From positions 1 to 36,527 of IMG/VR virus record IMGVR_UViG_3300042197_001650: a stretch of DNA of 36,527 nt, one strand, 5' to 3'. The notes beneath the pieces were generated by a model. The model did no database searches, was not told the DNA's origin, and was given only the letters and a program-made list of their open reading frames with translations. How positions within the stretch are numbered: position 1 is the stretch's first letter; each line of letters begins with the position of its first letter. The stretch comes from a virus. The translations under genes were made by a program, and so were the position numbers. This document shows, piece by piece, positions 4,565 through 31,630 of this stretch.

Positions 4565-6484
4565 ATGTCACAACAGAATATCAGGGAATATAATTTTAGA
4601 AAATGGTTTTTAAAACCTTCTGGCCAAAATTTAGACATAAATTTGGCTTCAGATGAGCAAAACTATAATGAGGAAGTTGTATTTTCACCTTATCTAATTG
4701 CTGAAAATGATGGTAATAGATTACCAATTAGTTTTGATTTAAATAATTCAGGTTCATCCCAATTATATGTTTTAAATTATGGACTATATAATTCAGCAAA
4801 TACTCTTGTATCACTCAATTATTATAACCCAAATAATGACAATTTGGATATGTTTACCGCATCAACTCTATGTGATATTGGATTAACAGGAATTGATAAT
4901 GGTTTAGTAACAGAAATGACAGGTGAAACAATTTCTTTTACTATGGGATTGTTAGACGACTCAAACAAATTTGATAGATATTCTTTTGACAGAAGATTTA
5001 AAATGTTCCAAGTTACAGGATATACAAATCCTCCAAATCAAAGATTTAGTGGGAATACCGCATCAACAATTTATGAAATTGTTTCAAAAACAAATAGCAA
5101 AATTGGGGCATATAATCAATTATATGGTGGATTTTATCAAGGGTTTTTTAAACTTTTTGGATATGATTATGAAGTTTTTCCAACAAGAACCAATAAAGGT
5201 TGGTCTGTTGAAATGATTTTGAGACCAAGAAAAAACGATGAGTTTTTTCCTACCTCCTCTCAAACAACTTTAAATCTTACGTATTCTTCAAACAATAATA
5301 CATTTTTTTATTTTGGAGTAAGAGGTGAAAATAAATTTTACCACCACGCATCAGGTTCACCCGAAAGTGACTCTGGTTATACAAGAGTCACACAAAATCT
5401 AAATGAATGCCTTAAAACTTGTTCGTGTTCAGATACTGGTGTCACAAATTCAAGATGTATTGAAGTTTACAATCCATTAGAATATACAATTGAACATAAC
5501 ATAGATTGTGGATGTGGATGTTCAGAAAATTCTGTATTAAACCCCGACAAAAACCCGCTTTATGATTCAATGTCAAATGCTTTATCTGTTAGATTTTCCG
5601 GTGACCCATCAAACCCAAAAATATGTGTTAAGGTATTAAAATTAACAGGGGATTGTGTTATGACTGGAACAACGCCTATTACAGGGATTACATATCAAAC
5701 GGGTTATACAATAACAGAATATTGTTCTAATAAACAAATTTACGAATATTGTGCAATTAACGGACCAAATTATTTGGAATCAGACCATTGGTCTTTAATT
5801 AATTGTGTTTGGGAAAGAAATACATATTTTGACACTTGTGATTTATACTACAAAGGAGGTCTTGGATTAATAACAGATTTTAAATATGTTGATAGTTTAT
5901 CAAATAATACAGTAAACTTAATTGAGCCTCCCGTTACCCATACAGGTAGTCTGGCACCAGACCAAGTTGAAATTGTTAATCTTAACGAAAGATGGTTGAT
6001 TGAAAAATCAGATAGGCTTGGAACATTAAAAATATATGTTAACGGAAGATTATTTTATGTTATAAATGGATTTGAAGAAATTATTCCAAGAGGGTTAAAT
6101 ACGGAAAAAGAAAAACAGCTTGGGGTTTCTTTTAACATATCTTGGGGAGGAGGAACTCAAGGATTAAGGGAAAGTTTAACATTTACAGGTTGTCCTGAAA
6201 GTTTAACGGGTTTAATTTACCAACAAGACCCTGAAGTTATGCCAAATCAAACACTATCAGGAACAAGCTTATCTGCGCTCACAACAAACATATTAATTGA
6301 GCCTAATTTTGGTGGAAGTTTTGATGGGGCAATAAGTCAATTTAGAATGTATGTTAAACCATTAAACGCTTCTGAAATTTTACACAATTTTAATTTATTA
6401 AAAAATAAATTTTTAATTTTTGACCCCCAATGCCCAAATTGTGATAATAATATACTAAACGATATAGAATACGAATTTTTATAA
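4565..6484 (+). CDS. LamG/concanavalin A-like virion structural protein
   Basis: This 639-residue protein is beta-rich and has no signal peptide. Residues about 205-260 ([17 protein letters not shown], then [13 protein letters not shown]) match the opening strands of a laminin-G/ConA-like lectin fold. [16 protein letters not shown] (about 487-502) and [11 protein letters not shown] near the C-terminus match its closing strands. Between them is an insertion with two tight Cys clusters (residues 282-298 and 315-319), plausible for metal or disulfide use. A CPNC pair lies near the C-terminus. The stop overlaps the next start as TAATG, coupling it to the fibre gene at 6484. A tail-fibre, baseplate-wedge or capsid-decorating role is likely; which one is not clear. 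Confidence 0.72.
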
Positions 6485-9400
6485 TGGCAATTAGATTTAC
6501 TAGCATAAAATACAGCGGATTTAGCGTAAATTTATCAGTATTACCTGTAGGTGAAATATATAGAACTTATGTGGGAGCTTTTACATTTCCTTTTGATTAT
6601 TCTGGAAACACAGATAATGGAATTTTTTATTTTTATATTCCCGCAATAGACCAAGTTTTTGAAAAAGAGGTCATCCCTTTACCCCCGACTCCTACCCCAA
6701 CAAATACGCTAACTATTACGATAACACCAACAAATACACCTACACCAACAAATACGCTAACTATTACGATAACACCATCTGAAACGCCAACAAATACACC
6801 TACACCGACTGAATCGGAATTAATAACACCTACACCAACAAATACGCCAACAAATACACCTACACCAACTGAATCGGAATTAATAACACCTACACCAACA
6901 AATACGCCAACAAATACACCTTCAATGACCGAGACCCCGACTCCTACCCCAACAAATACAGTAACGCCAACACCAAGTATTACATCTAATTTTGTTTTTG
7001 AAAGTTTATGGAGTGCGTCCTCTCCAATTGAATTACCTTATTCTCCTACTGGAACTTATTCGGGTATAATTTATTGGGGCGATGGTAATATTTCAGCAAA
7101 TACTTATGATAATAGAATACACGATTATGCGTCTTCAGGAAATTATAACGTAACAATTATTGGCCAAATTCAAGGGTGGGATTTTTTAAATTATGCAACA
7201 AGTTATAGAAATAATCTTATTGAGATTTATAAGTGGGGCTCTTTAATTGGTGAAAATAACTCCAATGCAAATATGTTCTATGGGTGTTCAAATCTATCGT
7301 TATCTTTAGTATCGGATGTGTTAAATTTACAGGGAATTACAGCAACAACAAGTATGTTTGAGAATTGTTCATCATTAAATGAAATTTTTAATGTGGAGTT
7401 ATGGGATACATCAAGTGTAATTAATATGTCAAATATGTTTCGTGGAACTAGCCTAAACAATCTAAATCAGGACATTCAACTTTGGGATGTTTCAAATGTT
7501 ACTGACATGTCAGGAATGTTTAGTGGGTCAACAAACTTTAACATAGATTTAGGAGGGTGGGATATTGGGCAGGTAACAAATATGACTAATATGCTAGACA
7601 ATACGTCATTGAGTATTTTTAATTATTCAAATACTTTGATAAATTGGGCGGCGTTAATTCCTAACATACAAAATGGAGTTACTCTTGGTGCTTATGGTCT
7701 TTTATATTCTGTTCCAGATGGTGAAGACGCTAGAAATATTTTAACTGGCAGTCCTTATAATTGGACAATAGTTGGTGATTCATCAACCAATATAACACCT
7801 ACCCCAACACCAACTATGACAAATACTCCAACACCTACATCGTCACAAATAGGACCTGAAACCCCTACAAACACACCCACATTAACCTCAACCCCAACCC
7901 CAAGTCCATCTCAAGGATATAACCCTTTTGTAAGTATATGGTCTGGAGATTCGGTAACGTTACCATACGTTTCAGGGGGAACTTATTCAGGAACAATTGA
8001 CTGGGGCGATGGAAATGTTTCAGCGAATACTTTTGCGAATAGAACTCACTCATATGACTCATTAGGACTTTATACCATAACAATTGATGGTGATATTACA
8101 GGTTTTAAATTCGCTCCAATTTCTGACAGATTAAAAATAATTGAAATTACAAGCTGGGGAAAATTAAGAGGTTTAAATAATAGTAATTCAGATATGTTTA
8201 GTTTCTGCTCAAATTTAGTATTGACTGGAGTTTCTAATACCCCAAATTTATCGGGAATTACTAATGTTGCTTCTATGTTCTCATCTTGTGCGTCTATAAC
8301 AACAATAAACAATTCTAATTTTTGGAACACTCAGGATATAGTTACTATGACCGCAATGTTTGACAGTTGTACTCTGTTTAATAGTACTATTAGTGGGTGG
8401 AATGTTTCTAATGTGGTAAATATTAATAGTATGTTTAATTCGTGTGAATCATTTAATCAGAATATTAATAATTGGGATGTGTCAAATGTTACAGGAATGA
8501 CCTCAACATTTGCGTTTACAAACATTTACAATCAACCATTAAATAATTGGGTGGTAAGCGCGGTAACAACTATGTCTAATATGTTTAATCAGGCGGTTTT
8601 ATTTAACCAACCATTAAGTAGTTGGACAATTACAAATTTAACAAATGCAAGTGCTATGTTAAATTCTTCAGGATTAGATACAATGAATTATTCAAATATG
8701 TTAATTGGTTGGGCAAACCAATCCCCAAATATTCAATCTGGTGTTACACTTGGAGCGTCAGGAATTTATTATTCCGCAACTACCGCACAATCATCAAGAG
8801 ATATTTTAACTAACCCACCTTATAATTGGGTTATTACTGATAATGGCCCTATTGAGCCGAGCCCAACACCGACCTCTACACCCACAGTAACTCCTACTTT
8901 GACTGTGACCCCAACAAATACACAAACCCCAACAAATACTGTTACTCCAACTGAATCAGAAACACCAACCCCTACGCCAACTAATACTCAAACTCCAACA
9001 ATAACTCCAACAAATGAAGGTCCTGTTTGTCCATATATTGTCGGTTACTTTAATACCACTGACGAAGTAATGAGATTTAACATTAACACTAATTACGATG
9101 GAAGTGTTTACGTTGTCACAACTGGCGGGACTGAAGTTTATGATACGTCATACACTTATGTTCAAACAATCCCAAACTCATTTACCGCTAATACACCAAC
9201 ATATGCCAGTATTGTTTTTGCTAATGAATTTGTATATGTTGGGGGTGACCCGTCTAACAAAAAAATTGACCTATTTGATTTAAGTCAATTAACATCTACC
9301 ACAGTAACGGTTGGTTCAAGTATTACTGAAATGTCTGTTGATTTAACAAATTCTTACGTGGCCTACTTAATTCCTGATTCAGATTATCAACAAATTTTAA

Positions 9401-9945
9401 TTGCAACTCAATCTATAGACGCAACACTTGATGTTTCGGCAACTACAAACGGGGATATTTCTTTTTCAAATATAGATAATTTTTATTGGATTGTGTCAAC
9501 GGGAGATACTTTAGTTAGAGTAAACCCCTCAAGTAAATCTATAGACTCAACTGAAACTTTGGCGTCAGGTGGGTATTCTGGATATAGAAAAACTTTACTT
9601 GATGACCCAAATAACGGATATACATATATTTTGGTTGATGGTCAATCTTTTATGGTTTATCGTAGTTCAGGATTTTATCAAGAAATTGATTTGACATCAT
9701 ATAGTGGAACAAATACAAGTATGACAATTGATGAAGTTAACAATAAACTTTATGTTCTTAACGTAAATGGAAATGATTTCGGTTTAATCAAAATAGATAT
9801 TTCTACATTTAGTGACGAAGGTTTATTTGACTTAGGTAGTTATCCAGGATTTACAAATGGTAATATTATTTACGACTTAAATAGTACAGAAATATTAATA
9901 AATTTTGTTCCGTATACCAATAGAATTTATAGAATTTGTACATAA
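6484..9945 (+). CDS. Modular fibre/adhesin: T/P-rich linkers, two PKD+DUF285 modules, propeller-like tip
   Basis: A 1153-residue mosaic. Residues 1-65 form a small beta base. Mucin-like linkers rich in PTPTNT occupy 66-168, 436-478 and 791-846. Two homologous modules (169-435 and 479-790) each begin with a PKD-like strand set (YWGDGN or DWGDGN, then HDY/HSY and a VTI/ITI strand). Each continues as BspA/DUF285-type leucine-rich repeats with the [13 protein letters not shown] signature. Residues 847-1153 are beta repeats with [15 protein letters not shown] and NKLYVLN motifs, like a beta-propeller. DUF285 and PKD domains are surface-adhesion modules, so this is probably a receptor-binding fibre. 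It is coupled to the 4565 gene (TAATG). Many NxS/T and T/P sites could carry glycans made by the adjacent island. Confidence 0.8.
6679..6987 (+). repeat. T/P-rich linker 1 coding repeat
   Basis: Low-complexity DNA encoding about 103 residues of [11 protein letters not shown] type. It contains the exact 60-bp tandem repeat listed separately. Confidence 0.9.
6785..6904 (+). repeat. 60-bp tandem repeat, two copies
   Basis: 6785-6844 and 6845-6904 are identical except for one base (G to A), with a partial third copy to about 6921. Each unit encodes 20 residues, so copy change keeps frame. Near identity indicates recent duplication. Confidence 0.93.
7789..7917 (+). repeat. T/P-rich linker 2
   Basis: Encodes about 43 residues rich in Thr/Pro/Ser and joins the two PKD-DUF285 modules. 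Confidence 0.85.
8854..9021 (+). repeat. T/P-rich linker 3
   Basis: Encodes about 56 residues ([20 protein letters not shown] units) before the C-terminal propeller-like domain. Confidence 0.85.
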
Positions 9946-15047: not shown

Positions 15048-17435
15048 ATGAGTTATAAAGACATTTTTACTAACATTTATAATAACTACGGTTTTGGTAG
15101 TTTAGAAAGTCGCTCGGGACCTGGCAGTACGATACAACAAACTGAAATTTTAAGAGAAAAAATAAAAACTTTAGTAAATGAAAAAAAGATAAAATCAGTT
15201 ATTGACATCCCCTGCGGAGATTTTAATTGGATGAAAGAAATTGTATTTTCTTTTGAGTCGTATGTGGGAGGAGACATAGTTGAAACGGCAATACAAGAAA
15301 ATAATGAAAAATATTCAAACTCAAGGATTAAATTTTTAAATTTTGATTTAATTAATGATAAAATCCCTAAATCAGATTTATTAATTGTTAGAGATATAAT
15401 TGGACACATGCCACTTAATGATGGTAAAAAAGTAATTGAAAACATAATAAACTCCGACTGTAAGTACCTTTTGAGTACAACATGGGCAAAAAAAGTAAAT
15501 GATGTGTGGTCAAGGTGTAACTTAAATGATGTTGATAGAGAAAACGAGGGGGTTGAATATGGTAGATTTTATCCAGTAAATTTGATGTCCGACCCGTTCA
15601 ATTTTCCTGAACCTGAGATTTATTTAGAGGAAGATGTTTATGTTGACAATTTTGAAAAGGGTAACAGAAAAGTTTTGGGGTTTTGGGAAATTGATAAAAT
15701 CAAAGATTATGTCAAAAATAATAATTTTGAAAATGTTAAACATAAAAATAATAATATTACTAAAATTAATAAGATTACCCTTGTCACTGGTCTTTGGAAT
15801 ATAGGGAGAGGGGATTTAAATGAAGGGTGGTCCCGTTCATTTGAACATTATTTAGAAAAATTTAAACAACTTTTAGATGTTGAAGAAAATTTAATAGTTT
15901 TTGGGGACGATGAATTAGAAAAATTTATATCAGAAAATTCAAAAAAACAAAACATTCAATTTATAAAAAGAAACTTAAACTGGTTCAGAAATAATGATTA
16001 TTATGAATTAATTCAAAATATAAGAAATAACCCAAATTGGTACAATCAGTCAGGATGGCTTCCTGAGTCAACTCAAGCAAGATTAGAGATGTACAATCCT
16101 CTTGTTATGTCCAAAATGTTTTTATTACACGATGCTAAAATTTTAGATAAATTTGATTCGTCTCACTTAATTTGGATTGATGGAGGAATTACAAATACTG
16201 TACATCCTGGCTATTTTACTCACGACAAAGTTTTAGATATTATAAAAGAAAAATTTAATAAATTTTCATTTATTGCATTTCCATATGACGGCAAAGTTGA
16301 AATTCATGGTTTTGAATATAATAAAATGTGCGAGTATTCTGAGTCAGTTGTTGATAAAGTTTGTAGAGGAGGTTTTTTTGGTGGTCCAAAAGAAAGTATT
16401 CCAGAAATTAATTCAATTTATTACACCACTTTAATAGATACTTTATCCAATGGATATATGGGGACTGAAGAATCCGTTTTTACAATAATGTCATATAAAC
16501 GTCCTGAATTAATTCAATATTTTGAAATTGAAAATAATGGATTAATTGGAAAATTTTTTGAGGATTGTAAAAATAATTCATTAACCGCAAAAACAGAAAA
16601 AAAACAAATGGAAAGTAATTTAGACATTTCCAAAACTGCTCTTTATGTTATTGGTTTTAATAGTCCTGCACAATTTGAAACATTAATAAAATCTATGTTA
16701 GAGTATGACTCAGATTTTATAACCAAAACTAAAAAGTTCTTGTTGGATAACTCAACCGATTTGACGACTACACCAAGGTATGTTGAGTTGTGTGAGGAAT
16801 ATGGTTTTGAACATATTAAAAAAGATAATATTGGAATCGTTGGTGGTAGAGTATTTGTTGCCGAACATTTTGATGAAACTGATTTAGATTTTTACTATTT
16901 TTTTGAAGACGATATGTCATTTTATCCTAAAAAAGGTGAAGTTTGTAGAAATGGATTTCCTCGTTATACTGATAATTTGTACCAAAAATCTTTAGAAATA
17001 ATTAAAATGGAAAATTTTGATTTTTTAAAATTAAATTTTAGTGAATTTTATGGTTCAAACGACGTTCAATTCTCATGGTATAATGTGCCTCAAGATTTTA
17101 GACAAAATCATTGGCCGAATAAACCTAAACTACCGACCCAAGGTTTAGACCCAAATTCTCCTAAAACAAAATTTGATGAAATACGCATTCATAAAAGTCT
17201 ACCATATGTATTGGGTGAAATCTATCTATGTAATTGGCCAATTGTATTAACAAAAGAGGGGAACTATAAATGTTATTTGGAGACCAAATGGGCCCATCCA
17301 TTTGAACAAACTCTCATGTCGTACGCTTTTCAAGAAACCGTAAAAGGTAAAATTAAACCTGGATTACTATTATTAACACCAACGGAACACCATAGATTTC
17401 ATCATTACGCTGCTGAATCAAGAAAAGAAAGTTAA
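15048..17435 (+). CDS. Three-domain fusion: methyltransferase, HtrL/YibB-like GT, GT2-like domain
   Basis: A 795-residue multidomain enzyme. Residues 1-225 are a class I methyltransferase (VIDIPCGDFNWM, motif I at 51-62; IVRDIIGHMPL; LLSTTWA). Residues about 243-495 match the HtrL/YibB family: ITLVTGLWNIGRGD, NPLVMSKMFLL, HLIWIDGGITNTV (metal-binding D378 region) and a late GGFFGGP. Residues about 530-795 look like a GT-A domain, with ALYVIGFNSPAQFETLI and FYYFFEDDMSFY (D621, D622 as DxD-type site). One chain thus holds one methyl and two glycosyl activities. It ends the island and converges on the HNH gene, overlapping it by 4 bases. Confidence 0.8.
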   Translation: MSYKDIFTNIYNNYGFGSLESRSGPGSTIQQTEILREKIKTLVNEKKIKSVIDIPCGDFNWMKEIVFSFESYVGGDIVETAIQENNEKYSNSRIKFLNFDLINDKIPKSDLLIVRDIIGHMPLNDGKKVIENIINSDCKYLLSTTWAKKVNDVWSRCNLNDVDRENEGVEYGRFYPVNLMSDPFNFPEPEIYLEEDVYVDNFEKGNRKVLGFWEIDKIKDYVKNNNFENVKHKNNNITKINKITLVTGLWNIGRGDLNEGWSRSFEHYLEKFKQLLDVEENLIVFGDDELEKFISENSKKQNIQFIKRNLNWFRNNDYYELIQNIRNNPNWYNQSGWLPESTQARLEMYNPLVMSKMFLLHDAKILDKFDSSHLIWIDGGITNTVHPGYFTHDKVLDIIKEKFNKFSFIAFPYDGKVEIHGFEYNKMCEYSESVVDKVCRGGFFGGPKESIPEINSIYYTTLIDTLSNGYMGTEESVFTIMSYKRPELIQYFEIENNGLIGKFFEDCKNNSLTAKTEKKQMESNLDISKTALYVIGFNSPAQFETLIKSMLEYDSDFITKTKKFLLDNSTDLTTTPRYVELCEEYGFEHIKKDNIGIVGGRVFVAEHFDETDLDFYYFFEDDMSFYPKKGEVCRNGFPRYTDNLYQKSLEIIKMENFDFLKLNFSEFYGSNDVQFSWYNVPQDFRQNHWPNKPKLPTQGLDPNSPKTKFDEIRIHKSLPYVLGEIYLCNWPIVLTKEGNYKCYLETKWAHPFEQTLMSYAFQETVKGKIKPGLLLLTPTEHHRFHHYAAESRKES

Positions 17436-18052
17436 AATAATATTTTATTACTTTTTTTTAAATTATCTTTAGCCCATAATGGTTGAAGATTTGTATAATG
17501 ACAGAGTTTATAAATTTCTTCTTCGGATTTTGCTGAAGATAACGGTATTACGTGGTCAATATGCCACCCGTATTGTCCATGATTATTCCAAGACATACCA
17601 TCAACAAACTGTTTTTCTAAATATTCTTTTAAAAATTCAGGAGAACATCCAAGAATCTTATTAAATAATTGTTTTTTTTCATAAGATTTAAATTTTAATA
17701 AATCCCTCATCCGGCAACTTAAAATATGCCTCATTTTGAATAGAGGGTCTTCATCATATTTTTTTTTACGAGCATTTCTTGTTGATTGATTATAATTTTT
17801 ATTTCGTTGTAAAATTTTTTCTTTATTTTTTTGATAATACTCGGCTCTCCATGTGTTTCTTTCTTTACGAGTTTGGTCATACCATATTTTATATTTTTCA
17901 GGATTTTTGTCCCGTTTAATTTTTTCATCTTCACTCTGACAAATTTTACACCGACTTTTGTAATATTGAATCCCTTTATTACTAACGGATTTTTTATTAA
18001 ACTCACAAACTTCTTTTTCAATTCCACATTTACTACAAATCTTTTTTTCCAT
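17432..18052 (-). CDS. HNH homing endonuclease with N-terminal zinc ribbon
   Basis: A 206-residue protein. Cys pairs CSKCG (about 5-9) and CKIC (about 35-38) form a zinc ribbon. A basic helical DNA-binding region (about 40-115) follows. The HNH core (about 155-202) reads YGWHIDHVIPLSS, then LCHYTNLQPLWAKDNLKKSN, the usual HNH order with the catalytic His in the DH pair. Its start overlaps the end of the RHH gene by about 20 bases, so the two are a cassette. A close, frameshifted paralogue sits at 26113-26807. It is a self-spreading element inserted between the glycan island and the fibre genes. Confidence 0.88.
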   Translation of the reverse strand: MEKKICSKCGIEKEVCEFNKKSVSNKGIQYYKSRCKICQSEDEKIKRDKNPEKYKIWYDQTRKERNTWRAEYYQKNKEKILQRNKNYNQSTRNARKKKYDEDPLFKMRHILSCRMRDLLKFKSYEKKQLFNKILGCSPEFLKEYLEKQFVDGMSWNNHGQYGWHIDHVIPLSSAKSEEEIYKLCHYTNLQPLWAKDNLKKSNKILF

Positions 18053-18188
18053 AATATTCTTTAACTAACCTGTTTATCAAGGTTGATTTTTTAATCCTAT
18101 CTTTAACCATTCTATCAAATAGTTCTCGGTCTAAACTTATACCGAATTTAATTTTACAATCATTTTTTTCTTTTTTATTTCTTCCCAT
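18033..18188 (-). CDS. Small ribbon-helix-helix protein (51 aa), HNH partner
   Basis: Translation from ATG at 18188 begins MGRNKKEKNDCKIKFGISLD and ends KEYYGKKDL. A basic N-terminal arm, one beta strand (KIKFGISLD) and two helices give the ribbon-helix-helix shape of Arc/CopG/MetJ repressors. A 51-residue paralogue, MGRPSKTIEEKKIKIGISLD at its start, precedes the second HNH gene. Both end inside the zinc-ribbon start of the HNH frame. A 15-bp palindrome 26 bases upstream is a candidate self-operator. Alternatively it could guide the endonuclease as a separate DNA-binding subunit. Confidence 0.72.
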   Translation of the reverse strand: MGRNKKEKNDCKIKFGISLDRELFDRMVKDRIKKSTLINRLVKEYYGKKDL

Positions 18189-18192
18189 ATTA

Positions 18193-18200
18193 TATAAATA
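18193..18200 (-). promoter_or_regulatory. TATTTATA promoter-like octamer
   Basis: Exact octamer, five bases before the RHH ATG at 18188 and 14 bases downstream of the palindrome. Confidence 0.48.
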
Positions 18201-18214
18201 TATATAAAACTAAT

Positions 18215-18229
18215 AAAAGTGAAACTTTT
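18215..18229. promoter_or_regulatory. 15-bp palindrome, candidate RHH operator
   Basis: AAAAGT-GAA-ACTTTT is a perfect inverted repeat with a 3-base centre. The same sequence with one centre base changed lies ahead of the second RHH gene (26969-26983), at 25 rather than 26 bases from the ATG. Confidence 0.6.
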
Positions 18230-18247
18230 TTTAAAACCTAACCTACA

Positions 18248-18258: not shown

Positions 18259-18627
18259 ATGGAATTTTTTATAACACAAAATTCAACCTTGCCTTTATTA
18301 AAAATGGAATTTGACTTTGATGGAAAGTCTTCGCTAGAGGACTTTAATTCCATTTTGGAAACTTCATCCATTTTATTTTCCATGAAAGATGTTGAAAATG
18401 GAAATTTAAAAATCTCAAACAAAAGAGCAGGTTTCACAAATAAAATATTCACCGAACCAAACGCCAAAACTGAATATTATATTTATTATCAATTCAGCAC
18501 ATTTGATACGAAAAGAGTTGGAAGATACGAAGGTGAATTTACAATAATTTCAGACGACGGAACGGTAATACTTCCAATTAAAGACAAACTATTTATAAAC
18601 ATAACCGAAAACTATATAAGGACATAA
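18259..18627 (+). CDS. BppU-like fibre-base/baseplate domain protein
   Basis: A 122-residue beta-sandwich candidate. [18 protein letters not shown], a central KRAGFTN segment, [24 protein letters not shown] and [12 protein letters not shown] follow the strand order of the BppU/DUF2479 N-terminal domain, which anchors receptor-binding proteins to phage baseplates. It is paralogous to the first 118 residues of the next gene. The stop overlaps that gene's start (TAATG). It may fill one ring position at a fibre base while the longer paralogue carries the shaft. Domain call is moderate. Confidence 0.65.
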
Positions 18628-20978
18628 TGGAATTTTATATTAAGAAAAACTCCACTTTGCCCATATTAAAGATGGAGGTTATTAAAGACGGTCGGAGTGA
18701 TTTTAATCTAAATTCATTTTTAAGTGGAAATACAACTTTTTTAATTTCACTTTATGACAAATCAAACGACAGATTTTTATTCGCATCAAAACAATGTTAT
18801 ATAACATCCGAATTTTCTGAATTTGAGGGAAAGGATTTATATTATTTAAATTATCAATTTACAAACAAGGACACATTAAGGGTTGGAAGATATGAACTTC
18901 AAATTTCAATTCCATCAGAACAAGGTGTTATATTATTGCCCCTTCAAGATAAATTTTATGTTAATGTTGTTGATTCTTTTGCTGGTGAAAATATAAAATA
19001 CATAAATAACTATGATTCAGATTTAAGTTGTTGCTCAAATCAACCCCCATCTGAACTTGGAGTTATTACGCTTCAATCTTATTTTAATAGCGGGTCATTG
19101 GTAATTGATTATATTTTATCTTCAAACAAAACATATAATAATAATATATCTGTTGAATTTACTAACACAATTGAAGTTTTTGAAGGAAATCCTTTTTTAA
19201 TAACAACAGGTGTTACAATAAATTCTGGAAATTTATCAGGATTAACTCAAATTACAATATCAGATTTTAATTATAATAATTTAAGACAAATTCCTGTTTT
19301 TCAAAATGTTAAAATATTTGGAGCTCCGCAAGGTTCAATTTTATTTTTAAATACCGAATCGTTTTTTGAACCACCAATTTCCCCATCTCCAACCCCTACT
19401 CCAAGTATAACTCCAACAAATACTATTACCCCTACAATAACACCTACTGCGACAGAAGCTCCAAATATAACTCCAACTCCGACTCCAAGTATAAGTCCAA
19501 CAAATACAATTACACCTACAATAACACCTACCTCAACAGAAGCTCCAAATATAACTCCAACTCCAACTCCAACTATAACTCCGACTGAATCGGAAACACC
19601 TACAACCACACCAACCACAACACCTACAAATACGGTTACTTCAACTTTAACTCCGACTAATACTCCAACTAATACTGTAACTAAAACAAATACACCGACT
19701 AATAGTGTGACTCCAACTATAACTCCAACCAATTTATCTTTTTGTTTTGACTATACTTTATCTGGTATTCAATTTACAGACACTAAAATAACAGACGGAA
19801 ATTATAATGGTTATCCTTATTATAACCTTACAAATGGTGTTGTTTGGAATGGTGGTAGTGGTTTAACTTATTTTTGGTATTGGACAGATGTTCTTGGTGA
19901 TACTGGAACAACTTATGGTTCACTCTATAACGGATTTAAACCAACTCCTGATAGTCAATCTTACGTTTGGAACTCTGGTGTTACAAGTCAAATGAACTCA
20001 TCATTAGTTGGGGTATGCTCAACTCCAACTCCTACCCCAACAAATACAATTACCCCTACAATAACACCTACTGCTACAGAAACTCCAAATATAACTCCAA
20101 CTGAAACTGTAACACCAACACCTTCAATTACTGAGACTCCTACACAAACGCCTACCATAACACCTACTGAATCGGAAACCCCAACTCCTACTCCAACAGA
20201 GTCAGAGACACCTACCCCAACCCCTACAATTACTGAAACTCCAACAAATACTCCAACCTTTACCGTTACTCCTACACCAAGTTTGACCACTTCTTCAGGT
20301 GGTATAGTTACTGAAAATTTATTTATGAAGTTAGATGCTTCTAACTATACTTCAGGTACTTGGAATGATGAGACAGCGAACGGTAACAATGCGACAATAA
20401 ATGGGGCTACTTGGTCTTCAGATAATGGAGGCATATTTGATTTTGATGGTGTTAATGATACAATAAGTATTCCTCACGTTTCTTCACTAAGTTTAAGTAC
20501 AACGGTGCAAAAAACTATACAAGTTTGGGTTAAATTTGATACTCTACCAGCGGTTAGTACACAAGTTCCAGTATTTGGTAAATTATCATCCTCATTTGGA
20601 TTCGACGGATATTGGTCAGGGTTATTTTCAGATTCGGGAATTATTAGATGTGTTACAAATGGAACATCGACTCAAAAAACATCCGATTCAACTTCAGCAA
20701 TCACAATAAATAATTGGTATTTATTTACATTTATTTCACAAATCACGTCTACGGCAAATACAACTAAAATATATATAAATGAAACAGAATATATTTCTTC
20801 ATCTCATGGTTCTGACACATATAATGAATCTAATACACTGTATTTAGGATTTATAGGTTCGGGTATTGGTTCTTTATATTTAAATGGTAAAATAGGTGCT
20901 TGTTATTTCTATACTAGTGGTTTAACATCAAGCCAAGTATCACAAAATTATAATAACACTAAATCAAAATATTTATAA
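18627..20978 (+). CDS. Fibre: BppU-like base, T/P-rich linkers, LamG-like tip
   Basis: A 783-residue mosaic. Residues 1-118 repeat the BppU-like domain of the preceding gene ([41 protein letters not shown]). Residues about 140-245 are a second beta domain. Mucin-like linkers fill 252-369 and 466-555. Between them is a small domain (370-465; [20 protein letters not shown]). Residues about 560-783 are a LamG_3/ConA-like lectin: [29 protein letters not shown] and KIYINETEY. LamG tips bind carbohydrate. This is likely a receptor-binding fibre made with the 18259 protein. Confidence 0.8.
19380..19733 (+). repeat. T/P-rich linker A of the LamG fibre
   Basis: Encodes about 118 residues of [12 protein letters not shown] type. 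The PTESETPT units resemble those of the 6484 fibre at residue and DNA level. Confidence 0.88.
19401..19568 (+). repeat. 84-bp tandem repeat, two diverged copies
   Basis: 19401-19484 and 19485-19568 encode the same 28-residue unit ([16 protein letters not shown], then EAPNITPT) with a few changes. A partial third copy lies in linker B around 20035-20100. Confidence 0.85.
20022..20291 (+). repeat. T/P-rich linker B of the LamG fibre
   Basis: Encodes about 90 residues of [11 protein letters not shown] type and joins the middle domain to the LamG tip. Confidence 0.88.
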
Positions 20979-21091: not shown

Positions 21092-23885
21092 GATATCAAA
21101 CGAAGAAATTGAACAATTCCTTCAGGGGAATGACGATGAAAAATATATCATCGGAGTTGAATACGATTACGTAAAGGATTGTATTTGGAAAATTATAGAA
21201 CACCCAATTCACGGAAAACAAATTAAAAAAGACACCTTTATTCCATTTGCTTGGGTTGGTGATTTACGTGGTCTAAACTTTTATCAATCATCAAAAGCGC
21301 TTCAAAAGGAAGCAATGACAAAACATAAAATTGTTATTGAAAAATTAAGAACAGATGGAAATGAAAGATTGGAAAAAGGATTAACTTATATGATTAAATC
21401 CCTTAATGGGTATAGGTCAATTATTCAGTTTTTTAGAGAAGGAGGAATTGAGCCATGGGGAGAAAAAACAAAAGGTTTGGTTTTAATTCTTCCGCCAGTT
21501 GAACAATATCTTGTTGTTAAAGAAAAACGAATGTTTAAAGGTTTTGATGAATATGACAGCATCACAAGATTTGTATTTGACTTGGAGACAACCGCTCTTG
21601 AGCCAAAAGATGGAAGAATATTTATGATTGGTATGAAAACCAATAAAGGTTTTAGTGAGGTTATTGAATGCGCAAATGAAGACCAAGAACGAAGGGGAAT
21701 TGTTAAATTCTTTAACACAATAGATGAAATTAAACCAAGCATTATTGCATCCTACAACGGATTTAACTTTGACTGGCATTGGTTATTTGAAAGAGCAAAG
21801 GCTCTTAATATTGACATAAAAAGAGTTGCAAAAACTCTAAATCCCGCGAACCCAATTAAACAATCTGAAAGTTTATTAAAACTTGCAAATGAAGTTGAAA
21901 AATTTAATCAAACTTCTATGTGGGGTTATAATGTTGTTGATACATTACATGCGGTTAGAAGAGCTCAAGCAATTAACTCCAATATTAAATCAGCAGGTTT
22001 GAAATATATAACCCAATATATATCTGCCGAAGCGGCAGACCGAGTTTATATTGAACATACCGACATCGGGTCAATGTATGCAAAAAAGGAAGAATATTGG
22101 CTTAATATTCAAAATGGAAAATACAAAAAAGTCGGAGTTGATGAAAAGATTGATGATGTGTGTTCAAAACATCCTGACATTTATATAAAAACAACTGGTG
22201 ACAATATTGTTGAACGATACCTTGATGATGACCTTGAGGAAACATTAAAAGTTGATGAAGAATTTAATCAGGGCTCGTTTCTTCTTGCTTCACTTGTTCC
22301 AACAACATATGAAAGAGTTTCCACTATGGGAACCGCGACATTATGGGAAATTCAAATGAGGGCGTGGTCTTATAAACATGGACTTGCAATTCCTGCCAAA
22401 AATGAAAAGACAGAATTTGTTGGAGGTTTATCTAGACTTTTAAAAGTTGGGTATTCAACTGATGTATTAAAACTTGACTTTTCATCTCTTTATCCTTCAA
22501 TCCAACTTGTGCATGACGTATTTCCTGATTGTGATATTACAGGAGCAATGAAGGGAATGTTGACCTATTTCCGAAATACTCGTATAAAATATAAAAATTT
22601 GGCAAAAGAATATTCTGATATTGATAAAAAGAAGTCATTGTCTTTTGATAGAAAACAGCTTCCAATTAAAATATTTATTAACTCACTTTTTGGTGCATTA
22701 TCTGCCCCACAAGTTTTTCACTGGGGCGATATGGATAAGGGACAAATGATTACTTGTACGGGTAGACAATATTTAAGACAAATGGTTATGTTCTTTACAA
22801 AAAGAGGATATACGGCAACAGTATTGGACACTGATGGTGTTAACTTCAGTTTACCAAAAGAAGGGGTTGACAATAGGTTTTATATAGGTAAAGGAATTAA
22901 TTGGGGAGTTAAACAAGGTAAAGAGTACAAGGGGTATGATGCAGATGTTGCAGAGTATAATGATACTTTTATGAAGGGTGCGATGTCTTTAGATTGTGAT
23001 GGGACTTGGAAATCCTGTATGAATATTGCTCGTAAGAATTATGCAACAATGGAACATAACGGAAAAATTAAACTTACAGGTAATTCTATTAAAAGTAAAA
23101 AACTCCCTCTGTATATTGAAGATTTTTTGGATAAGGGAATAAAATTATTACTTGAGGGTAATGGACAGGAATTTGTTGAGTGGTATTATGAATATTTGGA
23201 AAAAATATATAACAAACAAATTCCCCTTATGAAAGTTGCCCAAAGAGCCAAGGTTAAATTATCATTAGATGATTATAAAAAACGTTCAAAAGAAAAGACC
23301 AAGGCTGGAAATGAAATGTCACGTATGGGACATATGGAACTTGCAATAAGAGATGGTATTGCGGTTAGTTTGGGAGATGTTATTTTCTATGTTAATAATG
23401 GAATCAAAGCGTCCCACGGAGATGTTCAGAAAGTTAATAAACCAAAAACGGGATGGAAACAAGACCATATTGATACATACTTTAAAAACTATGGTAAAAC
23501 TTTAGATGTTACTATGGAATCATTCGTTCAACTCAATTGTTATAGATTGGACCCAACTGAAGTTGAAAATAATTCAAATATGATGGGCGAATATAATGTT
23601 TCAAGAGCAATTACCACATTTAATAAAAGAATTGAACCATTGTTGATTGTGTTTGGTGAAGAAGTTAGAAATAATCTTATTGTAGATAAACCTGAAGAAA
23701 GAGGTATTTTTACTAAAGAACAATGTAAATTGATTAATGGAGTTCCGTTTGAACCTGAAGACCAAGATAATTTTGATGATTTATTGACTATTACAGACCA
23801 AGAAATGAAATTTTGGGAGTCAGTTAATTTAAACCCAAAACACATATACAATTTTGCCGAAGAAGGATGGGAAGAGTTAATTTAA
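21090..23885 (+). CDS. Family B DNA polymerase, T4 gp43-like
   Basis: A 931-residue replicative polymerase with 3'-5' exonuclease. Exo I is FDLET (D164, E166). Exo II is SYNGFNFDWHW (N223, F227, D228). Polymerase motif A is LDFSSLYPS (D463), motif B is KIFINSLFG (K527, N531, G535), and motif C is LDTDGVNF (D580, D582). Motif C has Gly where DTDS is usual. A RKNYATME segment follows, as in the KKRY region. T4 gp43 has 898 residues, so length fits. No TATTTAT motif and no Shine-Dalgarno lie upstream; the leader instead holds an inverted repeat covering the start. It converges on the 23877 gene and overlaps it by 9 bases. Confidence 0.95.
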   Translation: MISNEEIEQFLQGNDDEKYIIGVEYDYVKDCIWKIIEHPIHGKQIKKDTFIPFAWVGDLRGLNFYQSSKALQKEAMTKHKIVIEKLRTDGNERLEKGLTYMIKSLNGYRSIIQFFREGGIEPWGEKTKGLVLILPPVEQYLVVKEKRMFKGFDEYDSITRFVFDLETTALEPKDGRIFMIGMKTNKGFSEVIECANEDQERRGIVKFFNTIDEIKPSIIASYNGFNFDWHWLFERAKALNIDIKRVAKTLNPANPIKQSESLLKLANEVEKFNQTSMWGYNVVDTLHAVRRAQAINSNIKSAGLKYITQYISAEAADRVYIEHTDIGSMYAKKEEYWLNIQNGKYKKVGVDEKIDDVCSKHPDIYIKTTGDNIVERYLDDDLEETLKVDEEFNQGSFLLASLVPTTYERVSTMGTATLWEIQMRAWSYKHGLAIPAKNEKTEFVGGLSRLLKVGYSTDVLKLDFSSLYPSIQLVHDVFPDCDITGAMKGMLTYFRNTRIKYKNLAKEYSDIDKKKSLSFDRKQLPIKIFINSLFGALSAPQVFHWGDMDKGQMITCTGRQYLRQMVMFFTKRGYTATVLDTDGVNFSLPKEGVDNRFYIGKGINWGVKQGKEYKGYDADVAEYNDTFMKGAMSLDCDGTWKSCMNIARKNYATMEHNGKIKLTGNSIKSKKLPLYIEDFLDKGIKLLLEGNGQEFVEWYYEYLEKIYNKQIPLMKVAQRAKVKLSLDDYKKRSKEKTKAGNEMSRMGHMELAIRDGIAVSLGDVIFYVNNGIKASHGDVQKVNKPKTGWKQDHIDTYFKNYGKTLDVTMESFVQLNCYRLDPTEVENNSNMMGEYNVSRAITTFNKRIEPLLIVFGEEVRNNLIVDKPEERGIFTKEQCKLINGVPFEPEDQDNFDDLLTITDQEMKFWESVNLNPKHIYNFAEEGWEELI

Positions 23886-26112: not shown

Positions 26113-26807
26113 TTAACTATTACTGATTTTAGAACCTTTACTCAAATTGTCTTTAGCCCAAAGAGGTTGTAAATTTGTATAATGACACAATTTAATCAAT
26201 TCTTCTTCAGTTTTTGCGGAAGATAATGGGATTATATGGTCAATATGCCATCCATAAATTCCGTAATTGTCCCAAGACATACCTTCTTTAAATTGTTTTT
26301 CAAGATATTCTTTAAGTTCTGTTGAAAGGCACCCAACCATATCAAAAGTTTTACTACTTTTATTTAGCGATGAGTGCTTAATAAACTTGTTTACTCTATC
26401 CCTCATTAAGATTTTTAATTTATATAGATTACAAGATTTTTTCTTTTTTTTATTATATTCATTTTTATATAAATTTACTTTTTCTTTGTTTTTTTTATTA
26501 TACTTTAAAAGTTTTTCATAAATTAAACTAGAATTTTTTTTATAATATTTTTTTTATCTTCTAGTATTTTTATTTTATTATTTTTGTAATAATTTCTAGC
26601 GTATTCTGTAAGTTTTTCTTTATTTTTTTCTTTATACTTTTTAAATTTTTTTGCAATTTTATCTTTATTTAATTTATAATATTCTTGTTTGTCTATTTTT
26701 CTGCAGGATTTACAACGGCATTGTAATCCATCCTTAGTTTTTGGGTGTTTTGTAAACTCATCGGTAAATTTTTCAATCTTACATTTACTACAAATTTTTG
26801 TTTTCAC
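26113..26807 (-). pseudogene. HNH homing endonuclease, frameshifted
   Basis: A paralogue of the 17432-18052 endonuclease. From GTG at 26807, the N-terminal zinc ribbon (KICSKCKIEKF, CRCKSC) runs in one frame to a stop at 26523. The C-terminal HNH part (YGWHIDHIIPLSS, LCHYTNLQPLWAKDNLSKGS) is in the frame one base back and is open from about 26556. The switch lies at an A8 run (26548-26555 in plus coordinates) where the codons AAA-AAT preceded by A would allow -1 slippage. It is a decayed copy, an assembly homopolymer error, or a real frameshifting gene. A TTG at 26831 is a less likely start. Confidence 0.82.
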
Positions 26808-26943
26808 AATATTCTTTGATAATTTTTTCAATTATTTGGGAAGTTTTACCACCTTTTTTAGTTATTAAACTATATAATTTTCTATCCAAACTAATTCCAA
26901 TTTTAATTTTTTTTTCTTCAATTGTTTTGGATGGCCTTCCCAT
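26788..26943 (-). CDS. Small ribbon-helix-helix protein (51 aa), second copy
   Basis: From ATG at 26943: MGRPSKTIEEKKIKIGISLD, then RKLYSLITKKGG and a C-terminal helix ending ENKNL. It has the same length as the 18033-18188 protein and the same MGR start, basic arm, KIxxGISLDR strand and helix pair. It overlaps the HNH start by about 20 bases, as in the first cassette. It remains intact although its HNH partner is frameshifted. Probably an autorepressor, or a DNA-binding partner of the endonuclease. Confidence 0.7.
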   Translation of the reverse strand: MGRPSKTIEEKKIKIGISLDRKLYSLITKKGGKTSQIIEKIIKEYCENKNL

Positions 26944-26947
26944 AATT

Positions 26948-26954
26948 GTAAATA
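26948..26954 (-). promoter_or_regulatory. TATTTAC promoter-like variant
   Basis: Four bases before the RHH ATG and 14 bases from the palindrome, the same geometry as the first cassette. A further TATTTATC lies at 26959-26966. Confidence 0.4.
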
Positions 26955-26968
26955 TCTTGATAAATAGT

Positions 26969-26983
26969 AAAAGTCAAACTTTT
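26969..26983. promoter_or_regulatory. 15-bp palindrome, candidate RHH operator
   Basis: AAAAGT-CAA-ACTTTT, extendable by one base pair each side. It is 25 bases from the RHH ATG and overlaps the 3' end of the SNF2 gene. It matches the 18215-18229 palindrome in 14 of 15 bases. Confidence 0.6.
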
Positions 26984-29873
26984 ATTTTTTAATTCCGTAA
27001 GAATAAATTTCGTTTAAGATTTGTTCAACAACATCCGTTTCAAACTCGTTAATATCACCCATTACCGTTCCAATTATTTGTTTTTTTCGGGACAAAATAT
27101 CATAGATTGCCATTTCCAAAGTGTTTTCATATAATGGATAGTAAACAAGAACATTATTTTTTTGTCCGTATCTATAACTTCTATCTTCAGCTTGAGCGTG
27201 GTCTGAAGGTAAGAATGATAAATCATTCATAATAACCGCCTCTGCCGCTGTTAATGTAATACCAACACCTGCCGCCTTTATGTTCCCACAAAATAATTTT
27301 ATCTTATCGTTTTCTTGAAAGTCGTCAACCGCCTTTTGTCTTGCGGGTTTTGATGTTGACCCATCAAGATATACAGAAACTTTTTTAAAGTGTTCGTGAA
27401 TTTTTTGTAATGGCTCTGTAAAGTTTGAAAATATAATTACTTTTTTTCCTTGCTCAATAATATTTTCGGCAACTTCAATTGTTATTGCAGTTTTTTCTTC
27501 CGCAATTACTTGTCTTACTTTTGTTAATTTTGAAAACTGAATTGATAAAGATTTTGACTCTTCTTTTTTATTATGATACCAATCATAGTATTCCCCCATT
27601 AATTCTTCATAAAGTCTTGAGTGTAATCTTTGATAAATTGGTGTAATAATTTTTTCAGGTAAATCTAAAACTTCTGTTTTTAATCTTCTAATTACATTTC
27701 TTGATGTTCTGTCTCGTAATTCTTCAAGGTTTGTTGCACCATTTACATTCCATACTTTTCTTTTTCCAACTGTAAATTGATATCCGCCGCAGTATCTAAT
27801 TGCATAGGCCATCCAGTTTGCGGCAACAGGACTTTCAATAAGGTTAAGAAGATTATAATAATTCATCGGTCGGGATGTCATCGGAGTTCCAGTTAATAAC
27901 CACAACCTCTCAACATTTTTTACTAAATCATTTATAATTTTTGTCCTCTGTGCTTGGGGGTTTGATATATAATGAGCTTCGTCAATAACAACAAGGTCAA
28001 AATTTTCTTTGTTTAGAATTGAATCTTTTGATTTTACTTCATGGAAATTTTTCATTATATCATAATTTATAATATAATATTTGTGTCCCTCTTCCCATTT
28101 TTTTCCTTCAATTATATATATTGAATCTTTGGAGTATAGTTCAATTTCCCTTTTCCAATTTATTTTTAAACTGGCGGGACAAATAATTAAAATCTTTTTT
28201 GATTCACTTTCAATTGACGATATTACGGTACTAGTGGTATTATGGGTCACTATGAAATGTTCAGTGACATATAATTTATTTGGGGAATTTATAGATATAC
28301 AAACCGAATCTCCGAGCCTTTCAAATTGAATGTCTTTAATGTATCTTGCAACTTTATATTTTTTTGGTTCACGATATAAATCTTTTTTTCTTTTTAATCT
28401 AAAAGGGTTCATGTTCCCCTGTAATTTTATATTAATTCTATACGATTTTTTACCTTGTTTTTTTTCACCATTATAAGTGTATGTTGGAGTCCTACTTTTT
28501 TTTCTGGCAATCCCTCCCAAACTTTGGACAATTTCTACAACGTCGTCCGCTAATTTTTCAGATATTGTAGAAAATTCAGTTCCAGCAAATTCGTTATTTT
28601 TTCTTGATTTATAACAAGTACCATCAGTGTCCATTAATCCTTGTAGGACGGATAGTCTGGTTTCTACGGTATTATATTTGTAAATGTCAGGAATAAATTT
28701 ATTGTAAGAACGACAACCTTGCAGTTTTAACTTTTTTAAAATTTTAACTAAATAATTTGTTTTATCATTTTTTAATTTAGATAATCCATAGTCACAATTT
28801 TCTCCTTTTTTCTTATTAATTATAATTTTTTCTCCTACAATATTTTTTATTGAGTTAATTAATTCTTCATCTTTTGTTGAAAAAATAATGCTTTCATTTG
28901 TAATACCTCCATCACCTAATATTAAACCTAAAAGGTATGGGTCTAATGGTAATTCTTGGGTATTAAATTGAACTGGTTGGGTTATTGGGATTTGCCATTT
29001 AGAATTTCCTCTATTAATTTTATAGTAGGTTTTTTGTAGTTTTGAATGTAACCCTTCTCCTTTAATTGAAAAATTTTTGTCAATCAATTGTTTTGTTGTA
29101 AGATTTATATTTAAAATTTTTCTACGGTTATTGTTATACCCATTTGATGCGGTTGAAACATTCCATATATGTTCTTCGCAACATAGAACCGAATATCCGT
29201 CATTAAAGGTTACTCTATACAAATTTTTTACTCCTTGTGGAAAAACTCCTGTAACTTTATATGGTAATCCATCGTTACCAAAAATTTCATCTCCTATTTT
29301 AATGTCCCCAATTTTTTTAGGACCATATGGAGTATAGACAATGGTATTAATTTCCAAAGCTTTGCCAAGCCCCATGTCGTCAGCAACAATAAACCTGTCG
29401 TTTTCAAGGAGTTTAACTATACATTCTTTTTGGTGATTTAGTGGAGGACGATGAGAATATTTTTCCCAATCAACTTCAACATTTCTTGTTTTTGCTTTAT
29501 GGATTGCTGTTTTTGGTATCCAAAAATCATATAAATTATCCCCACTAAAAACTTTACCCCAAATATGATATGATTTATCTTTTTCAACCAAAAGTTTTTC
29601 AACATAAATTTTATCAGGTTCTTTTATAAATGGATTATCATCAACAAGTTTTTTTGCAAAATACGAATCAATTTCAACCCATTTTTTTGCGACCTTTGGT
29701 TCAATATTATAAAACCCATTTATATAATCACATTGAGCTCTTGTTGGAATAAATTTTGAATTAACTTCTTGTTGATGTTGTAATTTTAGGATATAGTTAT
29801 TTGACCCTTTATACTCTTTCAAGATTTCAAGGGTTTTGCGTTCAATGTTTTTTGTTTGAACTTGTTCTTGCAT
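26982..29873 (-). CDS. SNF2-family DNA helicase/translocase with intein
   Basis: A 963-residue precursor; the spliced product would have 589. Residues 1-171 hold the N-terminal region and start of the ATPase core (PPLNHQKECIVKLL, then ADDMGLGK). An intein follows at 172-545. The C-extein resumes with TTS, restoring Walker A GLGKT. Motif II is LVVIDEAHYI, motif III LLTGTPMTSR. The second RecA domain ends with GVGITLTAAEAVI and AEDRSYRYGQ, the SNF2 motif V/VI. The closest functional type is SMARCAL1/UvsW-like fork or branch remodelling, acting in phage replication or repair. No TATTTAT precedes it in the right orientation, in line with early expression. Confidence 0.92.
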   Translation of the reverse strand: MQEQVQTKNIERKTLEILKEYKGSNNYILKLQHQQEVNSKFIPTRAQCDYINGFYNIEPKVAKKWVEIDSYFAKKLVDDNPFIKEPDKIYVEKLLVEKDKSYHIWGKVFSGDNLYDFWIPKTAIHKAKTRNVEVDWEKYSHRPPLNHQKECIVKLLENDRFIVADDMGLGKALEINTIVYTPYGPKKIGDIKIGDEIFGNDGLPYKVTGVFPQGVKNLYRVTFNDGYSVLCCEEHIWNVSTASNGYNNNRRKILNINLTTKQLIDKNFSIKGEGLHSKLQKTYYKINRGNSKWQIPITQPVQFNTQELPLDPYLLGLILGDGGITNESIIFSTKDEELINSIKNIVGEKIIINKKKGENCDYGLSKLKNDKTNYLVKILKKLKLQGCRSYNKFIPDIYKYNTVETRLSVLQGLMDTDGTCYKSRKNNEFAGTEFSTISEKLADDVVEIVQSLGGIARKKSRTPTYTYNGEKKQGKKSYRINIKLQGNMNPFRLKRKKDLYREPKKYKVARYIKDIQFERLGDSVCISINSPNKLYVTEHFIVTHNTTSTVISSIESESKKILIICPASLKINWKREIELYSKDSIYIIEGKKWEEGHKYYIINYDIMKNFHEVKSKDSILNKENFDLVVIDEAHYISNPQAQRTKIINDLVKNVERLWLLTGTPMTSRPMNYYNLLNLIESPVAANWMAYAIRYCGGYQFTVGKRKVWNVNGATNLEELRDRTSRNVIRRLKTEVLDLPEKIITPIYQRLHSRLYEELMGEYYDWYHNKKEESKSLSIQFSKLTKVRQVIAEEKTAITIEVAENIIEQGKKVIIFSNFTEPLQKIHEHFKKVSVYLDGSTSKPARQKAVDDFQENDKIKLFCGNIKAAGVGITLTAAEAVIMNDLSFLPSDHAQAEDRSYRYGQKNNVLVYYPLYENTLEMAIYDILSRKKQIIGTVMGDINEFETDVVEQILNEIYSYGIKK
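28239..29360 (-). mobile_element. Class 3 intein with LAGLIDADG endonuclease, in Walker A
   Basis: A 374-residue intein. It begins ALEINTIVYTPYGPKKIGD, with Ala in place of the N-terminal nucleophile. The class 3 triad is present: W66 (CEEHIW), C354 (DSVCISI) and T372 (VTHN). The end is HN followed by +1 Thr. Two LAGLIDADG motifs, LLGLILGDG (about 143-151) and LQGLMDTDG (about 239-247), make it a homing element. It splits the helicase exactly between the Lys and Thr of GKT. Boundaries were checked at DNA level. Confidence 0.9.
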
Positions 29874-31484: not shown

Positions 31485-31630
31485 TTATCTCCGTACAGGT
31501 CTTTTTTTTCTGCACAATTTTCTAATATCAAGATTTCCAAAAACTTATGGATTTTTAATCCTTTTTTATTACAATGTTTTTTTAACATAGTATGGTATTC
31601 TTCTGATATTTTTAAGTTCTTAATTTTCAA
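31481..31630 (-). CDS. Possible small RHH-like protein (49 aa), TTG start
   Basis: A minus-strand frame reads (M)KIKNLKISEEYHTMLKKHCN, then KKGLKIHKFLEILILENC and a charged tail. Strand-helix-helix order and the basic arm suggest a ribbon-helix-helix fold. No ATG is available at the start; TTG at 31630 is proposed. A TATTTAT lies at about 31670 on the same strand. It fills the only sizeable gap in the tail operon. Uncertain gene. Confidence 0.4.
   Translation of the reverse strand: MKIKNLKISEEYHTMLKKHCNKKGLKIHKFLEILILENCAEKKDLYGDN

Follow-up and report, generated by a model that had tools for sequence, protein, structure and literature searches.

A phage RHH-HNH gene cassette that probably combines a stand-alone homing endonuclease with its own autorepressor

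Introduction

Minimal ribbon-helix-helix (RHH) repressors such as Arc, CopG and SvtR are proteins of about 50 amino acids (aa), made of a strand and two helices, which act on a palindromic operator at their own promoter. In controller-protein restriction-modification operons, a small DNA-binding protein likewise times the expression of a selfish nuclease. Here we analyze two gene pairs, each composed of a small RHH gene and an HNH nuclease gene, in a stretch of 36,527 bases that is the entire IMG/VR record IMGVR_UViG_3300042197_001650 (hereafter the window). We estimate at roughly 80% the probability that such a pair forms a free-standing homing-endonuclease unit that brings its own autorepressor with it. 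The sequences show directly that the two genes are paired and overlap in a fixed way, that they have an operator whose class matches the type of RHH, that the ends of insertion can be placed from empty sites and scars, and that RHH and operator are exchanged as a block against nucleases; from these patterns we infer DNA binding, repression, cutting and homing. Unlike Arc, CopG and SvtR, the RHH protein of the cassette is encoded within a mobile nuclease unit and is exchangeable with its operator and, unlike controller-protein operons, the cassette has no methyltransferase and its nuclease appears mobile by homing rather than part of a host-addiction module.

Homing endonucleases need enough expression to spread, and expression low enough not to harm the host. 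In T4 this control is exerted by the enzyme itself or by RNA hairpins, whereas here it would most likely be exerted by a separate 51-aa repressor, swapped between nucleases like a cartridge together with its operator. I-TevI of phage T4 represses itself (PMC2988022), a precedent that supports a self-repressing cassette. With I-TevI, I-TevII and I-TevIII the cassette would share a homing endonuclease promoter shut by a DNA-binding protein whose operator overlaps a phage promoter, as shown for I-TevI. In the T4 case, however, the endonuclease itself represses and the operator resembles the homing site; in the cassette the presumed repressor is the product of a separate RHH gene, and the operator is unrelated to the target and absent from empty sites. 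The T4 mob genes and cyanophage F-CphI are free-standing nucleases of related type (PMC2988022, PMC6083498). They too are intergenic genes beside conserved phage genes, with an HNH-type (beta-beta-alpha-Me) domain, but an RHH partner is not described for them, and the cassette nuclease family differs by an N-terminal zinc ribbon and a C-terminal HNH domain (HIDHIIPLSS..NLQPLW).

An association of a CcdA/HicB-like antitoxin with a PacI-like homing endonuclease was reported for moraphages, with a regulation hypothesis in one paragraph (PMC12619734, Arch Virol 2025). Both associations join a small RHH-type protein to a putative homing nuclease of the HNH type, are present in several copies per genome and occur in large aquatic Bacteroidota phages; compared by description, the moraphage association is probably the same as that of the window. 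The moraphage text differs in that it reports neither gene overlap nor operator, and neither the ends of insertion and empty sites nor a list of targets or any reassortment. As far as found, the new points are thus how strictly the two genes are linked, the cassette ends with their empty sites, an operator that matches RHH type, and the exchange of modules. Our literature search, with most subscription journals outside its coverage, found no other description of an RHH-HNH cassette. TrcR, the subject of a paper dealing with both RHH and HNH (PMC10272220), was rejected as the same system: it is an RHH autorepressor that belongs to the host and governs a wide regulon, rather than a mobile pair.

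RHH genes are strictly linked to overlapping HNH genes

A first-pass annotation of the window, made without database searches, had described two HNH genes, each preceded and overlapped by a 51-residue RHH gene with an MGR start and the motif KIxxGISLDR. Our analysis agrees with this description: both RHH proteins begin with MGR, the motif reads KIKFGISLDR in RHH1 and KIKIGISLDR in RHH2 (45% identity between the two proteins), and a 20-nt overlap was found at each pair. What had been missed is a frameshift in HNH2. Its GTG start gives the same 20-nt overlap register as in copy 1, and the gene is divided between an open N-terminal half (26523-26831) and an open C-terminal half (26113-26406). HNH2 is therefore either a pseudogene or an assembly error in the poly-A tract, and of the two cassette nucleases in the window one is intact and the other broken. 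RHH2 and operator 2 are intact despite this frameshift, either as a repressor outliving its nuclease or, again, through an assembly error.

The overlap measures 20 nt in 75 of 94 cassettes and 23, 11 or 8 nt in most others; its length is 2 modulo 3 in 94/94. This arrangement probably couples translation of RHH and HNH. A programmed frameshift yielding an RHH-HNH fusion was rejected as unnecessary, HNH being in the +1 frame with its own start codon.

We then examined how strictly the two genes go together. Viral contigs searched with RHH1 alone or RHH2 alone gave 19 loci and, in all of those long enough to judge, the HNH gene starts within the RHH 3′ end. A profile of 18 RHH proteins retrieved 152 relatives; in the best 80, which were inspected, an HNH gene or its recognizable wreck lies 3′ of RHH in 80/80. 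Wrecks include early stops (L124, L147), a truncation (L142) and an internal deletion that fuses the RHH tail to the HNH end (L178/L179). To avoid bias, 30 whole records were searched for every RHH copy: 44/44 copies were accompanied by HNH or a wreck, with at most 4 copies per record. Of 38 related records whose target site is empty or scarred, 35 lack the RHH family, and the three copies found in the other three all come with HNH. The total for whole records is thus 47 RHH copies in 68 records, every one with HNH or a wreck. The first-pass annotation had proposed that RHH genes found equally often without HNH would speak against the cassette; these counts point the other way. HNH homologs without RHH do exist, 26 of them being used in the nuclease comparison. 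No member of the RHH family was found in GTDB genomes (patterns matched 334 stretches) or in the 50,697 named phage records of INPHARED.

An annotated transcriptional regulator also overlaps the start of an Endo VII-like HNH gene in Rhizobium phage 16-3 (L102, p099/p100), possibly an independent regulator-nuclease pairing. It was rejected as an RHH relative, since it looks helix-turn-helix.

Cassettes lie at gene ends that are empty in related phages

The mobile unit comprises operator, phage-type promoter, RHH and HNH, about 0.8 kb in all. At least three loci, sites A, B and C among them, carry it at the end of a gene, where it abuts stop codons and leaves the neighboring genes whole. Its mobility is shown by the existence of natural empty sites.

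Site A is bordered on one side by the gene 15048-17435 in the window, whose product has methyltransferase and HtrL_YibB domains and ends in ..TPTEHxRFxHYxxxLRKES, and on the other flank by the gene at 18259, whose product begins MEFxIxxNSTLP. It is empty in 46 alleles, where the flanking genes are 16-90 nt apart and no operator is present. In the closest relative (L188), the stop codon is followed by TTCCATATTTATAGGTATGG, as compared with stop, cassette (17436-18245) and CATATTTATAGGTATGG in the window. Site B, where the stop codon of the DNA polymerase gene meets a convergent gene, harbors 12 distinct cassettes and is empty in the window and in L186. It is occupied in L097, L145, L149, L152-L157, L160, L166, L167, L180, L185 and L187. 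Site C, between the stop codon of a helicase gene and the superoxide dismutase (SOD) gene, is occupied in the window, L093/L349, L014/L344 and L347. It is empty in L330-L334, where GTATTTATWATTRATG comes directly after the helicase stop; in L330 this stop is followed at once by GTATTTATTATTGATG. A further cassette was found in L362, after a RecA-like gene.

We also observed scars. L253 and L262 retain the HNH tail only (..CHYTNLQPLWAEDNLKKNNKIL), and a decayed HNH tail is recognizable in L233/L236/L240 (score above all 1000 shuffles). Presence/absence polymorphism at a fixed conserved site, the mark of free-standing homing endonucleases, is thus seen at three loci and accompanied by scars, and the apparent gain, decay and loss of cassettes follow the pattern of homing endonuclease genes. 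Accordingly, the earlier proposals that the pair and its upstream DNA move as one unit, and that this unit is a mobile cassette of the homing-endonuclease kind, are borne out by the empty sites; the recommended comparison with cassette-free relatives placed the insertion ends at stop-codon junctions, with empty alleles at all three sites.

A putative operator follows the RHH type and is exchanged with it

The first-pass annotation implied a palindrome bound by RHH. Such a sequence, AAAGTnnnACTTT, occurs exactly twice in the 36.5 kb, only before the two RHH genes and just upstream of them (expected 0.18; two occurrences were reached in 2/100 shuffles). In the wider set, ACTTT[TA] is located at -15 to -45 in 63/65 cassettes (shuffled mean 3.4) and TATTTAT just before the RHH start codon in 59/65 (shuffled 2.6). 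TATTTAT by itself is not peculiar to cassettes: 10/31 window genes have it in the 30 nt upstream (0.36 expected; 1/31 in the opposite orientation), and in relatives it precedes 49/49 neighboring (MEF) genes. In contrast, ACTTT[TA] is found upstream of this promoter motif in 60/62 cassettes and in 0/49 neighboring phage genes with the same motif, on which basis a general phage promoter element was rejected. The combined operator and promoter pattern gave 14 matches in 20 whole records (~1.9 Mb), 14/14 directly before RHH, and none in the reversed control. This exclusive location argues for an operator dedicated to the cassette.

The promoter motif TATTTATA is strand-specific and found upstream of transcription-unit starts, such as those of RHH1 and of the genes at 35006 and 1102-1860. 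Its reverse complement is the T4 late-promoter consensus TATAAATA, present upstream of 1/31 window genes. The motif often ends 4-7 nt before ATG, which suggests leaderless transcripts.

Three main operator classes were distinguished: I, AAAGTnnnACTTT; II, GTATrACTTTTCATACTTT; and III, AAAATACTACTTTT. Arc Asn11 is a base-contacting residue, and we compared the classes with RHH residue 16, aligned with it by eye. Glycine at this position goes with class I (43/43), alanine or threonine with class II (11/11) and serine with class III (6/6), so that the operator class follows residue 16 in 60/60 classified cassettes. Since class I is found at sites A, B and C, operator class does not follow the target.

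Operator class needs 2 changes on the RHH tree, the minimum, versus 12 on the nuclease tree, where at least 5-6 changes are forced by supported branches and where class II is distributed no better than shuffled labels (10 vs 10.3). The sister nucleases of L105/L184 share 83-88% DNA identity, while their RHH genes are only 69% identical and their operators differ; the similarity jumps exactly at the 20-nt overlap, which is the breakpoint of an RHH/HNH swap. Similarly, the closely related nucleases of L129/L177 share the same target and have RHH of classes I and II. These class changes and the L105/L184 breakpoint indicate that operator and RHH travel as one block, with nucleases exchanged beneath. 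Such an exchange is the strongest evidence for RHH acting on the operator, and speaks against a cognate subunit of one nuclease. Of the two roles put forward earlier for RHH, that of repressor thus gains support from both the tracking of RHH by operator class and their joint exchange.

Two divergent examples were noted as well. L320 (record G003:C1:86208) encodes a divergent RHH with the strand SISIALK, upstream of which lies the long perfect palindrome AAAGTTGTTA-AAAA-TAACAACTTT, and L324 carries GTGAATATTCAC. Together they indicate more operator classes than the three counted here.

Identity of the RHH and HNH proteins

Some members of the RHH family match the Pfam models CcdA (1.6e-6), RHH_3 (7e-4) and BrnA, and there was no Pfam profile match for RHH1 itself. 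Matches in the PDB, SvtR (2kel) and NikR, were both weak. The proteins show the strand pattern K.K.G.S with hydrophobic alternation, and a low-confidence model places helices at 21-29 and 34-47; the strand-helix-helix layout of MetJ/Arc proteins, about 45 aa with alternating DNA-facing strand residues, is thus present. Family members are 48-54 aa long and end about 4 residues past helix 2. RHH is under purifying selection (median dN/dS 0.27 at a median dS of 0.97, for codons before the overlap in 628 non-independent pairs).

HNH1 matches PHROG 1035 (E=5e-17); in HNH2 the N part corresponds to PHROG 2340 and the C part to PHROG 1035. The Pfam HNH model matches 17/20 family nucleases at sub-threshold level, and the fold match of HNH1 in the PDB is Hpy99I, a weak one (E=0.3, probability 1.00). 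D166, H167 and N188 are invariant in 20 nucleases and the CxxC pairs invariant or nearly so, and hence both the catalytic residues and the metal/zinc ligands of HNH (beta-beta-alpha-Me) nucleases were found. None of the PADLOC anti-phage defense models matched the cassette proteins.

Proposed mechanism and rival explanations

In the most likely model, RNA polymerase would start at TATTTATA in the cassette and transcribe the RHH-HNH operon, with HNH translation depending on that of RHH because the HNH start lies inside the RHH gene. RHH dimers would occupy the palindrome, which lies some 20 bp upstream of this promoter element, and so block the promoter. Under such repression the nuclease would be made only in a short burst, when the cassette enters a repressor-free cell or when replicating copies outnumber the repressor. 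HNH would then cut or nick cassette-free DNA at a conserved gene end (the 3′ end of the HtrL_YibB-domain gene, the DNA polymerase end or the helicase/SOD junction), and repair from cassette-bearing genomes would copy the cassette in.

An obligate complex of the two proteins would also account for their strict pairing, the fixed overlap and the joint mobility; RHH could then be the DNA-specificity subunit of a split homing enzyme, guiding the nuclease to its target, as the first-pass annotation had alternatively proposed. We consider this very improbable. The sequence that tracks RHH type sits inside the cassette and is absent from 46/46 empty targets, RHH of classes I and II accompany closely related nucleases at the same target (L105/L184, L129/L177), and class I RHH is found at three different targets; in addition, 26 HNH1 homologs have no RHH, and RHH has no interaction tail. 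The specificity-subunit role was thus rejected on operator location and reassortment. The same reassortment bears on a toxin-antitoxin module, in which RHH would neutralize HNH and repress the operon in the manner of CcdA. Antitoxins of this type autoregulate via palindromes and carry a neutralizing tail. Autoregulation of this kind, the match of family members to the CcdA and BrnA antitoxin models and the antitoxin role considered for moraphages (PMC12619734) would agree with such a module. However, RHH proteins of 48-54 aa, ending about 4 residues after helix 2, leave no room for a neutralizing tail, and RHH and HNH lineages reassort freely, unlike cognate pairs, which makes an antitoxin role less likely; site-specific insertion with empty alleles points rather to homing. 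With neither toxin-binding tail nor cognate pairing found, we regard this module as quite unlikely.

The least probable explanation is that RHH is a general phage regulator, or host-directed antitoxin cargo, hitch-hiking with HNH to the benefit of the phage. It would be in line with the fitness-offset idea of the moraphage study (PMC12619734) and with the RHH-like open reading frame (ORF) 31481-31630 of the window, which has no HNH. Against it, the operator and promoter pattern stands only before RHH (14/14), the family is missing from 35/38 related records with an empty or scarred site, and RHH was never found without HNH in the 80 loci and the 47 copies of 68 records.

Several observations nevertheless weigh against a homing cassette with its own autorepressor. 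The RHH identification draws on weak profile matches, and a structure search with the low-confidence monomer model gave no match. The Pfam score of HNH1 is under the curated cut-off (E=0.006), and the model of its fold is weak for the C-terminal domain. The three operator classes leave six cassettes unassigned, and the covariation of residue and operator does not amount to many independent events because the RHH tree has only two class changes. Finally, comparison of occupied and empty target 3′ ends for a clue to the cut site showed no difference at p<0.001.

The autorepressed cassette could be extended to repressor-immunity groups, operator plus RHH being a control block that can be transferred and that nucleases pick up at the 20-nt overlap. 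New operator classes would spread in this way: a cassette of such a class would escape the resident repressor, produce its nuclease and home, while a cassette of the resident class would be silenced on entry. This would amount to superinfection immunity between selfish genes rather than between phages; we hold it to be unlikely. Within genomes, cassette class diversity did not differ from chance (mean identity 0.46 in both, 2781/5000 shuffles as low), in a comparison of low power, and cross-exclusion of operator classes within genomes was rejected on this null result.

With an autorepressed cassette, the long-standing question of how selfish nucleases are restrained becomes testable with two small proteins and 60 bp of DNA. 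The cassettes offer matched repressor/operator pairs of several specificities, and the combination of operator, TATTTATA and RHH overlapping HNH provides a sequence tag for such elements in phage genomes.

Phage context and other features of the window

Table 1. Coordinates of cassette features in the window
Feature	Position	Strand	Remarks
Cassette 1	17432-18245	-	HNH1, RHH1, promoter and operator, ~810 bp; flanked by the stop codon of gene 15048-17435 and by CATATTTATAGGTATGG, promoter of the gene at 18259
HNH1	17432-18052	-	206 aa; N-terminal CxxC...CxxC zinc ribbon, variable helical middle, C-terminal HNH (HIDHVIPLSS...HYTNLQPLW...N..K)
RHH1/HNH1 overlap	18033-18052	-	20 nt; HNH start codon within RHH 3′ end
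RHH1	18033-18188	-	51 aa; strand KIKFGISLD, helices ~21-29 and 34-47, no extra tail
Promoter motif TATTTATA	18193-18200	-	phage-type, -10-like; 4-5 nt before RHH1 ATG
Operator 1	18216-18228		putative; class I palindrome AAAGTGAAACTTT
Empty target site B	23877-23885		overlap of DNA polymerase stop and convergent 23877-24221 gene
Cassette 2	26113-26981	-	between helicase stop (26982-26984) and SOD promoter (GTATTTATAATTG); nuclease broken
HNH2	26113-26807	-	GTG start at 26807; frameshifted, A-rich tract near 26540
RHH2	26788-26943	-	51 aa, KIKIGISLDR, intact
Operator 2	26970-26982		putative; class I palindrome, AAAGTTTGACTTT on minus strand; shares one base with helicase stop codon

Among the products encoded by the window are a family-B DNA polymerase, a contractile-tail sheath protein and an Fe/Mn SOD, and its SNF2-type helicase contains a LAGLIDADG intein. 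This gene content makes a distant T4-like phage the probable source; the nearest polymerases of named phages share only ~23% identity with that of the window. The cassette-bearing group consists of large uncultured phages from water.

The helicase gene, 26982-29873 (-), is interrupted by its intein at about residues 170-545, so that a second kind of selfish nuclease adjoins cassette 2. A further putative homing endonuclease, with a NUMOD3 motif and a REase-like domain, is encoded at 1102-1860 (-); it has a TATTTAT promoter and no RHH gene. The RHH-like ORF at 31481-31630 (-) encodes 49 aa from a TTG start, with an Arc-like match to PHROG 582 (E=0.005) and the C-terminus ..EKKDLYGDN, and ends on the stop codon of the 30426-31484 gene. 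Lastly, 6484-9945 and 18627-20978 (+) encode large proteins with long T/P-rich repeats between folded domains, which are probably located on the virion surface.

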